Under the pieces are notes generated by a model. The model saw only the letters and a program-made list of their open reading frames with translations, did no database searches and was not told where the DNA came from. Shown piece after piece: positions 28,403-30,993 of a stretch of DNA of 38,870 bases. This stretch comes from Gammaproteobacteria bacterium (GTDB lineage: Bacteria; Pseudomonadota; Gammaproteobacteria; UBA6429; Thiohalophilaceae): the NCBI GenBank assembly GCA_022712915.1, contig JAFLJQ010000187.1, forward strand, positions 1 to 38,870. The letters run 5' to 3'. Every line of letters starts with the position of its first letter. Positions within the stretch are counted from its first letter, which is position 1. A program made the position numbers and the translations under genes.

Positions 28403-28999
28403 TTAAAGTTCGACACGCCCATTAAAGGCATGAGATAAAGTAGTACTGTTAACATACTCCAGCTCTCCTCCTATAGGCACGCCATGGGCAATACGTGTCG
28501 CCTTAATGCCGCGTGTACTGGCCATTTCCGCAATATAATATGCTGTAGCCTCCCCTTCTACAGTAGGGTTAGTTGCGAGAATCAGCTCAGTAATGATCCC
28601 TGCATCCAGCTTCTTGGCCAAAATATCTAGCCCAAGTTCAATTGGACCAACCCCATCAAGGGGTGAAAGATGCCCCATTAAAACAAAATAGACTCCGCGG
28701 TATCCCGCCACTTGTTCAATGACCTGCACATCAGCGGGTGATTCCACAACACAAATAACCGACTGATCCCGACCCCGATTATTGCAGATATCACAAACTG
28801 TCTTTTCACTCAGGGTTCGGCATTGCTCGCAATTTCCGATCTGCTCAATAGCTTCGAGCAGATCATGAGCCAACTGGCTGGCCCCTTGCCGATTATGTTC
28901 CAGCAAATGATAAGCCATGCGTTGTGCTGACTTGGGACCCACACTAGGTAAACAGCGCAGGCTTTCAATCAAACGATTTATCAGTGAGCTGCCTGTCAT
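28403..28999 (-). CDS. recR: Recombination protein RecR
   Basis: 198-residue DNA-repair protein that loads RecA with RecO/RecF at gaps. Helix-hairpin-helix ([24 protein letters not shown]), C4 zinc finger ([17 protein letters not shown]), Toprim domain ([17 protein letters not shown]) and the C-terminal conserved [25 protein letters not shown] are all in order. It follows ybaB, as in most proteobacteria. The 206 bases between its stop and the HDOD gene hold no recognisable feature. Confidence 0.97.
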
Positions 29000-29022: not shown

Positions 29023-29340
29023 TCAGAATGGCAATTTAAAGCCAGGCGGTAAATTCAGGCCAGCACCCAATCCGGAAAATTGATCCTGACTCTGAGCTTC
29101 AATCTGACGAACAGCATCATTTACTGCAGCAGCCAACAAATCTTCCAGCATTTCCTTGTCATCCATCACACTATCATCAATATTGACGCGCTTCAGATCA
29201 TGCCGGCCAGTCATCACAACCGACACCAGGTTACCACCGGCATTACCGGTCACTTCCAGTTTAGCGATATCTTCCTGGGCCTTTTGCATCTTTTCCTGCA
29301 TCTGCTGGGCCTGTTTCATTATGTTACCTATGCCTTTCAT
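29023..29340 (-). CDS. ybaB: YbaB/EbfC nucleoid-associated protein
   Basis: 105-residue DNA-binding dimer of the YbaB/EbfC family. It has a long N-terminal helix rich in Gln, Met and Lys ([20 protein letters not shown]), then [26 protein letters not shown], and ends in [11 protein letters not shown], as usual. It sits between dnaX and recR, the conserved order. Confidence 0.95.
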
Positions 29341-29388: not shown

Positions 29389-30993
29389 TTAATCTACAGG
29401 CTGGATGGCGTTTTCATCCACTGTAGCATTAAAAGTCTCAATAATATTCTGCACAGTGGCATCTTGCTTTATGGCCTGTTCCGCTGTTTCCTGTCTTGCC
29501 TGTTTTTTACGAACAGCTTGCTCTGCCGGTGTGTCTAATGAGGACTTTTCAAGGTTAATCGATAAACGAATGGATCGACCACAAGATTCAGATAAAACTT
29601 CCTGTAAGCGCGCCTGACGATCTTTCGTATACAGATATTCATTGGCCGGATCCAGAACAAGCTGTATTGCTGCTGCTTCCTTATGTTTGATTACACAATG
29701 CATGGCCAACTGTTTTAATACACCAACAATATCTAGATTTTCAACTATCATGGCCCAATCATCCCCACCACCACTATCCACCACTTTTGTAACAACGATT
29801 TGTGGTTTAAGCTCCTTAACTACCTGTTTCACTGGCATATGAGGTTCACGAATCTCGCTCAGTTTTTCAGGTGTTTTTTTTTCCGGGGTCATATAATCGG
29901 GCCTAGTATCAGCCGGTCGAAAAGCCAACATACGCAGCAAGACCATCTCCAGGCCGGTGCGAGGATCCGGCGCCAGATTCAGATCACGGCGGCCAACCAG
30001 CCCTATCTGGTAATACAACTGGACATCTTCAACGGATAAAATTTCTGCAAAGCTAGTTAAACGATCTTTATCCCCCATGGCCTCATCATAGGCCGAAGGT
30101 ACCTGCTGCAGAATTGCAATATGATGCAGAGCCGTAATCAATTCTGCCAAAACATCACCATAATCAGGCACCTGAGTAGATAATTCCTGTACCTGCTGCA
30201 ACAAAGCACAGCCATTTGCATCCGCCAACGCCTGTACAAGTTCATATACGTAAGTCTGTTCGATAGTGCCGAGCATACTGCGGACTTCGCTGTCCAACAA
30301 CTTGCCTGCACCAAAGGCAATGGCCTGATCCAACAGGCTCAAGGCATCACGCATACTGCCATCAGCCGCATGGGCCAATTGGTTCAAGGCAGCCGGTTCC
30401 GCCTCCAAACCTTCTTCCTTCACTAGATACTGCAAATGTCCCTGGATCATATCTTGTCCCAGACAACGCAAGTTGAATTGCAGGCAACGGGACAAAATAG
30501 TGACCGGCAACTTTTGCGGATCCGTCGTCGCCAATAGAAATTTTACATGAGGAGGTGGTTCTTCCAGCGTTTTCAACAAAGCATTAAAACTGTGATTGGA
30601 GAGCATATGTACCTCATCAATGAGGTAAACCTTGAATCGACCTCGCGCTGGGGCATACTGGACATTATCCAGCAGGTCTCGAGTATCCTCGACCTTGGTA
30701 CGAGAGGCGGCATCCACTTCAATCAGATCAACAAAACGACCTTCATCGATCTCCCGACAGGCGGAACAAATCCCACAGGGAGAAGAACTGACACCCTGCT
30801 CACAATTTAGGGATTTAGCCAGAATTCGAGCAATGGTGGTTTTACCCACGCCCCGCGTACCGGTAAATAAAAAAGCATGATGCACTCGATCGGTATCCAG
30901 TGCATTGATCAGGGCACGCAAGACATGCTCCTGTCCTACCATTTGCGAAAAATTTTTGGGCCGCCATTTTCGGGCCAGAACCTGATAGCTCAT
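29389..30993 (-). CDS. dnaX: DNA polymerase III tau/gamma subunit
   Basis: 534-residue clamp-loader ATPase. Walker A GTGTRGVGKTT-type motif (GTRGVGKTT, K51), zinc-binding Cys C64, C73, C76, C79, Walker B LIDEVHML and SRC sensor motif in domains I-II. Domain III ends near residue 360, and the rest is the tau-specific part that contacts the polymerase and helicase. Codons 371-374 contain nine A in a row (29874-29882), with a stop five bases behind the run in the -1 frame, so a shorter gamma form of about 375 residues is likely. ffs lies upstream. Confidence 0.96.
   Translation of the reverse strand: MSYQVLARKWRPKNFSQMVGQEHVLRALINALDTDRVHHAFLFTGTRGVGKTTIARILAKSLNCEQGVSSSPCGICSACREIDEGRFVDLIEVDAASRTKVEDTRDLLDNVQYAPARGRFKVYLIDEVHMLSNHSFNALLKTLEEPPPHVKFLLATTDPQKLPVTILSRCLQFNLRCLGQDMIQGHLQYLVKEEGLEAEPAALNQLAHAADGSMRDALSLLDQAIAFGAGKLLDSEVRSMLGTIEQTYVYELVQALADANGCALLQQVQELSTQVPDYGDVLAELITALHHIAILQQVPSAYDEAMGDKDRLTSFAEILSVEDVQLYYQIGLVGRRDLNLAPDPRTGLEMVLLRMLAFRPADTRPDYMTPEKKTPEKLSEIREPHMPVKQVVKELKPQIVVTKVVDSGGGDDWAMIVENLDIVGVLKQLAMHCVIKHKEAAAIQLVLDPANEYLYTKDRQARLQEVLSESCGRSIRLSINLEKSSLDTPAEQAVRKKQARQETAEQAIKQDATVQNIIETFNATVDENAIQPVD
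29874..29882 (-). other. A9 slippage / frameshift site in dnaX
   Basis: Codons read GAA AAA AAA ACA CCT. A -1 shift, or one extra A by RNA polymerase slippage, gives GAA AAA AAA AAC ACC TGA and ends the protein at residue 375. Loss of one A also ends it within five codons after the run. Thermus thermophilus makes gamma by slippage on A9 and E. coli by frameshifting on A6G. No strong upstream ribosome-like site or downstream hairpin is seen, so slippage in transcription fits better. Confidence 0.6.

Follow-up and report, generated by a model that had tools for sequence, protein, structure and literature searches.

A run of nine adenines in dnaX of a gammaproteobacterium is a probable transcriptional slippage site for the gamma subunit

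INTRODUCTION

The general role of the gamma subunit in bacteria has long been disputed. The Gammaproteobacteria are a class known for ribosomal frameshifting in dnaX, and transcriptional slippage on a run of nine A residues (A9) was reportedly found in dnaX of Thermus thermophilus by Larsen et al. in 2000. Two papers describe the Thermus system as one in which gamma is produced by slippage, with stop codons in both nonzero frames (PMC5009743) and with a dnaX run of 9 A's (PMC3711429). In Escherichia coli dnaX, the same papers describe a -1 ribosomal frameshift at A_AAA_AAG, with a Shine-Dalgarno (SD) sequence and a stem-loop (PMC5009743, PMC3711429), and Vibrio and Neisseria are also given as having a ribosomal site (PMC3711429). 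Transcriptional realignment has been proposed for a GeneTack cluster of split dnaX genes, among them those of Chlorobium and Chloroherpeton, in which the run has 7 to 10 A's (PMC3711429). In Blochmannia dnaX, a poly-A frameshift is located in the part specific to tau and has been interpreted as correction rather than as a means of making gamma (PMC3017870). Runs of at least nine A's or T's make enterobacterial RNA polymerase slip in either direction, and slippage on the run of Thermus dnaX also takes place in E. coli (PMC6260861). According to a 2012 review, most bacteria outside the enterobacteria and Thermus have no frameshift signature in dnaX (PMC3290774). By title and abstract, the literature on dnaX slippage, of which coverage was partial, contained no A9 gamma site in Gammaproteobacteria.

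Here, we describe such a run in a stretch of 38,870 nt (the window; GCA_022712915.1, contig JAFLJQ010000187.1) of a genome termed G000. Coordinates are positions of the window, and all dnaX features and neighbors given by them lie on the minus strand.

RESULTS

dnaX of the window and its A9 run

The dnaX coding sequence (29389..30993) was identified from its open reading frame and from NCBIfam and Pfam matches. It encodes tau, of 534 amino acids, in a single open frame, and its product scored 808.8 bits against NCBIfam model PRK07994.1 (cutoff, 613). The next gene downstream is ybaB/ebfC (29023..29340), which is followed by recR (28403..28999). Pfam placed domain III at residues 235 to 357 and the alpha-binding tau domain V at residues 394 to 530. 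The motif closing domain III, RMLAF (residues 356 to 360; 29920..29934), was used as the anchor. The A9 run (29874..29882) lies in the short linker between the two domains; it reads GAA AAA AAA ACA and begins in the 11th codon after RMLAF. The original prediction had put it at codons 371 to 374, where domain III ends, and indeed it sits there, behind RMLAF and Pfam domain III; the interval given, 29867 to 29883, extends past the run far enough to include the -1 stop.

One A added to the run gives E K K N T and then the TGA of the -1 frame (29867..29869), 2 codons on, with a predicted gamma of 375 residues, estimated at about 41 kDa. One A removed (or two added) gives E K K H L K N and then the TGA of the +1 frame (29859..29861), 4 codons on, with a predicted gamma of 377 residues. 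The immediate stops that had been claimed for both shifted frames are therefore true by sequence: the -1 frame does end after Asn-Thr at 375 residues, and the other one, said to stop within a few codons, ends after His-Leu-Lys-Asn. An in-frame A_AAA_AAG is not present at the site, and none of seven SD-like motifs was found at 18 to 5 nt upstream of the run. The nearer 48 nt downstream showed no excess folding (-7.7 kcal/mol; z = -0.52), and the 60-nt downstream stretch gave -13.2 kcal/mol (z = -1.41); all hairpin z values were derived from base shuffles, not dinucleotide shuffles.

Like T. thermophilus dnaX, as published, the window gene has one open tau frame, an A9 run behind domain III, and stops in two frames. 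Unlike the Thermus gene, it is gammaproteobacterial, and the sites are patchy within one family; gamma from slipped mRNA has been reported for Thermus, whereas here it is predicted from sequence. With E. coli dnaX, by its published description, it shares a truncated gamma (predicted here) comprising domains I to III, but it lacks A_AAA_AAG, an SD-like motif, and a notable near hairpin and has stops in both frames. The contrast with the E. coli site holds because the first two elements are missing and folding is ordinary. As in split dnaX of Chlorobium and Chloroherpeton, there is a poly-A run of the kind proposed for transcriptional realignment, but tau, which requires the shift in the split genes, is the unshifted product of the window gene.

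The run in the genus and family

A search of 58 related genomes gave a match at E ≤ 0.001 in 56; in several of these, there were only weaker, partial matches, which were taken for clamp-loader paralogues. At E ≤ 1e-20, dnaX was recovered from 29 of 40 genomes of the family. Both other members of the genus keep the run at the same spot, as A9 in G001 (CAA AAA AAA ACA) and as A10 in G002 (AAA AAA AAA ACA). Among the three genes, the linkers are 39 to 55% identical at the amino acid level, compared with 88 to 90% for domains I to III, and the codons of shared lysines are identical in 6 of 11, 9 of 14, and 10 of 15 cases. Homologs interrupting the run with synonymous AAG codons had been named as refuting the prediction; the alignment of relatives did not refute it in the genus, since both congeners keep A9 or A10 even though their lysine codons agree in only 55 to 67% of cases. 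In the GC-richer G002 (75% complete), the dnaX run is one of three A10 runs in the genome.

Outside the genus, the family runs are those of G010 (A10) and G059 (A9). Runs of at least nine A's (A≥9) numbered 5 in 2,900 nt of the 29 family dnaX genes (100 nt per gene, from RMLAF) and 0 in the other 44,863 nt; three of the five belong to one genus, lysines in the linker favor A runs there, and 24 of the 29 genes have no A≥9. Beyond the first 100 nt from the anchor, the sequence that follows in the family genes (14,104 nt) contained no A≥9 and three A8 runs. In 80 named dnaX loci, there was likewise one A≥9 in the 8,000 nt from the anchor and none in 134,456 nt elsewhere.

A tree was built from 36 DnaX sequences, of which 29 belong to the family. 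On this tree, the label A9 or longer needs 5 changes, at least 3 of which are forced by well-supported branches. The window genus, G010, and G004 form one group (support, 91/91); support along the backbone is weak. G059 is placed separately, and its near relatives have A8 (G036) or no run of eight or more (G015 and G034). Since G034 and G015 have no such run, either the sites are gained and lost rapidly or some of them are dispensable. The gene of G004, the sister of G010, has two A8 runs (locus L004). They lie 125 and 173 nt downstream of the point where RMLAF starts, and after both of them the -1 frame stops within 2 codons; this pair is possibly a displaced or decayed site.

Occurrence in the class

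In the class-wide survey, 369 genomes from 272 genera were searched for A≥8 at 10 to 70 nt behind a literal RMLAF, and dnaX was confirmed by tblastn. The pattern matched in 19 genomes, and 18 of the matches were dnaX (4 with A8, 12 with A9, and 2 with A10); the 14 genomes with A≥9 are spread over 10 genera. The reversed control pattern matched in 1 of the 369 genomes at A≥8 and in 17 at A≥6. A wider scan for A≥6 gave 43 genomes: the 18 with A≥8 in dnaX, 13 with A6 (n = 8) or A7 (n = 5) in dnaX, and 12 unconfirmed as dnaX. One genome of the A6-A7 group, G069, has an additional A8 slightly outside the reach of the scan. From A6 to A10, the dnaX runs thus number 8, 5, 4, 12, and 2, with no steady fall. 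A9 outnumbers A8 at the dnaX site by 12 to 4 (8 to 4 by genera), whereas genome-wide in G000, A8 is about six times commoner than A9. We left out 17 of 216 loci that had no dnaX match by tblastn (L287, L302, L307, L310, L312, L313, L316, L319, L324, L325, L327, L328, L330, L334, L335, L342, and L344). Since only runs 10 to 70 nt after a literal RMLAF were seen, the survey gives a minimum figure and would not detect the E. coli site, located farther downstream of RMLAF.

Chance level of A9 in the window genome

Both strands of G000 (4.24 Mb) contain 95 A nine-mers and 718 A eight-mers, from which 531 A8, 90 A9, 1 A10, and 1 A11 runs are derived. The fall beyond nine is steep, and runs of ten or more are almost missing. 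From the density, about 6e-4 A≥9 runs are expected per given 60-nt sense stretch. At the other A9 places there were 79 distinct runs, 38 of them sense and within open frames 150 codons long or longer, and in 3 of these 38 control frames both shifted-frame stops were within 4 codons, as in dnaX. The two stops of the window gene, taken alone, were not significant (P ~0.12 by synonymous resampling). The A9 observation is real, yet alone it is not decisive and could be due to chance; it becomes more than chance because of the comparative results in relatives. A filter described in PMC1088944 calls for proof of avoidance when more than 20 genes carry A9 or T9; under this filter, the tolerance of G000 for A9 in 38 other open frames weighs against the slippage reading.

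Stops in both shifted frames

For the stop codons, we collected 19 dnaX genes with A≥9, chosen by run length alone, some of them from congeners: 14 from the class survey (window included), 4 more from the family, and 1 from the named collection. As the null, synonymous codons behind the run were resampled 2,000 times with each gene's own usage. The mean distance to the stop was 4.3 codons in the -1 frame, 4.7 in the +1 frame, and 6.95 in the worse of the two, compared with resampled means of 11.2, 13.7, and 20.2; the 2,000 resamplings never gave values this low. When each genus was represented by a single gene (n = 13), the distances were 4.4, 3.6, and 6.2 codons, the last against 19.7 in the resampled set (0 of 2,000). 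An alternative null, built from other positions in the same linkers, had the same outcome for the 19 genes. Early stops in both frames are thus a significant property of the A≥9 dnaX genes as a group.

In 18 control genes with A6 or A7, the -1 stop was early (P = 0.0125), but the +1 stop was not (P = 0.59), and the worse one gave P = 0.07. These controls were hand-picked and not exhaustive, comprising G003, 12 of the 13 other class genomes, G020, and 4 named loci; in one of them, L315, the longer A8 run was the one scored. Five A8 genes were intermediate, with weakly early stops at 14.0 and 5.2 codons and P = 0.0445 for the worse one. For ribosomal -1 shifting, a -1 stop is enough; two-way slippage requires a stop in each shifted frame.

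Hairpins, SD-like motifs, and A_AAA_AAG sites

For comparison with the A≥9 genes, we took the 14 A_AAA_AAG sites that occurred in the initial 260 nt of the distinct linkers collected; one locus, L294, belongs to both groups. Downstream folding had a mean z of -0.02 in the 19 A≥9 genes and of -1.13 at the 14 A_AAA_AAG sites (one-sided Mann-Whitney P = 0.012). Values of -1.5 or lower occurred in 3 of 19 and 7 of 14, respectively (Fisher P = 0.057), single A≥9 sites being variable, and SD-like motifs were present in 2 of 19 and 5 of 14. Four of the 19 A≥9 genes (L281, L282, L283, and L288) also hold an in-frame A_AAA_AAG and, since both elements are present, could use either mechanism.

Two linkers of the same family, L010 (G003) and L012 (G020), combine an in-frame A_AAA_AAG with a GC-rich hairpin of 7 to 8 bp, and their -1 frame stops after 2 codons. 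The hairpins reach -15.5 and -13.8 kcal/mol (z = -1.96 and -2.65, respectively; over 60 nt, -1.31 and -0.74). By these sequence features, the two sites are of the E. coli type.

DISCUSSION

The A9 run of the window gene is probably a programmed transcriptional slippage site that gives rise to the gamma subunit, as in T. thermophilus. RNA polymerase copying the run would yield a mixed mRNA population. Messages with 9 A's, or with 9 plus or minus 3, would encode tau, with or without one lysine gained or lost; those off by a number that is not a multiple of three would run into a stop within 2 or 4 codons and encode gamma, that is, domains I to III without the alpha-binding C-terminal part. The observed basis of this reading consists of the run, its place, the stops in two frames, the keeping of the run in the genus, the group-wide stop signature, and the lack of a group-wide hairpin excess; from it, we infer that the polymerase of the organism slips at A9 and that gamma both accumulates and serves in the clamp loader. 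The original prediction of a Thermus-like A9 design in place of the E. coli A6G site is supported by the keeping in the genus, the two-frame stops, the absence of A_AAA_AAG and SD-like motifs, and ordinary folding. Against slippage speak the 24 of 29 family genes without A≥9, the 38 other A9 frames, the nonsignificance of the window stops taken alone, and the somewhat early stops of the A8 genes.

Alternatively, tRNA-Lys could slip on the in-frame A_AAA_AAA during translation and the ribosome could terminate after Asn-Thr, the E. coli outcome from a weaker heptamer. We consider such -1 frameshifting unlikely. The heptamer is in frame, the -1 stop is only 2 codons off, and the 60 nt behind the run fold slightly better than shuffles (z = -1.41), but there is neither an SD-like motif nor a notable hairpin in the nearer 48 nt (z = -0.52). 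The in-frame A_AAA_AAG in 4 of the 19 A≥9 genes makes both mechanisms possible there, and A_AAA_AAG sites with hairpins do occur in the same family (G003 and G020); the window site, however, offers A_AAA_AAA, a heptamer at which shifting in E. coli is much weaker than at A_AAA_AAG (PMC5009743). Moreover, ribosomal shifting leaves the near +1 stops of the group unexplained, and G000 has a separate tRNA-Lys(CTT), which also argues against it, though this is of little predictive value.

It is improbable that the run is simply neutral, an A-rich piece of a disordered linker that contains lysines, with coincidental stops. Its restriction to one position, its keeping throughout the genus, the excess of A9 over A8 (12 to 4), and the two-frame stops would all be unexpected, even if 24 of 29 family genes do without A≥9 and 3 of the 38 other A9 open frames of G000 have stops as close; furthermore, an A9 in an essential gene should also invite replication slippage. 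Slippage at the DNA level, i.e., phase variation that generates gamma-only cells, is very improbable. Such a cell would be without tau, and the assembled frame was open through the run in all 19 A≥9 genes, over 30 codons. Tau alone is reportedly essential in E. coli, going by the title of Blinkova 1993. What favors phase variation is that A9 can be hypermutable (PMC1088944).

If gamma is made by transcriptional slippage here, the design would be of a known kind; what appears new, as far as sequences tell, is its scattered occurrence in Gammaproteobacteria, beside A_AAA_AAG sites with hairpins in the same family. We lean, with some reserve, toward the view that a short DnaX is worth keeping in this class and that lineages swap, at one location after domain III, A9 or A10 slippage sites (two-frame stops and no hairpin) and -1 ribosomal sites (A_AAA_AAG and perhaps CTA_AAG in Pseudomonas, with a hairpin and a -1 stop). 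Such an exchange of two devices, if true, would contradict the published view (PMC3290774) that dnaX is without a frameshift signature in most bacteria other than enterobacteria and Thermus. The recurrence of a frame-losing site just after domain III, through two different mechanisms, would argue at the sequence level for selection of the short form, and relatives with and without the site are natural pairs for testing the role of gamma.

Lysine tRNAs

In PMC5009743, the possession of two lysine tRNAs is suggested as a correlate of slippage, Thermus having both. G000 has tRNA-Lys(TTT) and tRNA-Lys(CTT), at positions 1501 to 1576 in each of loci L172 and L173. The tRNA-Lys(CTT) pattern matched in 126 of the 369 class genomes but in only 2 of the 14 A≥9 survey genomes (G000 and G167). 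In 30 chosen genomes, a wider tRNA-Lys pattern found any tRNA-Lys in only 16 and none in 14, and absences are therefore largely uninformative. A lysine tRNA rule for slippage was not supported: both species were also found in the A_AAA_AAG genomes G003 and G020, and only TTT was seen in five A9 genomes (G105, G236, G339, G151, and G267) with this wider pattern, which left 14 of 30 genomes blank.

A CTA AAG element in Pseudomonas dnaX

In 22 loci (L068, L072, L075, and L078 to L110), selected on CTA AAG alone, an in-frame CTA AAG about 50 nt behind the RMLAF of dnaX is followed by a 9-bp hairpin. Twenty of them are labeled Pseudomonas (all 20 so labeled in the collection), and two are labeled Gammaproteobacteria. 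P. aeruginosa dnaX yields only tau in recombinant E. coli, according to PMC3290774. The element resembles a site for -1 frameshifting on A_AAG. Pairing in the hairpin is preserved where one or both arms have changed: 8 of the 9 base pairs form in every one of the 21 distinct sequences, and the ninth forms in 20. Each of the 22 loci has a -1 stop at a distance of 5 or 10 codons.
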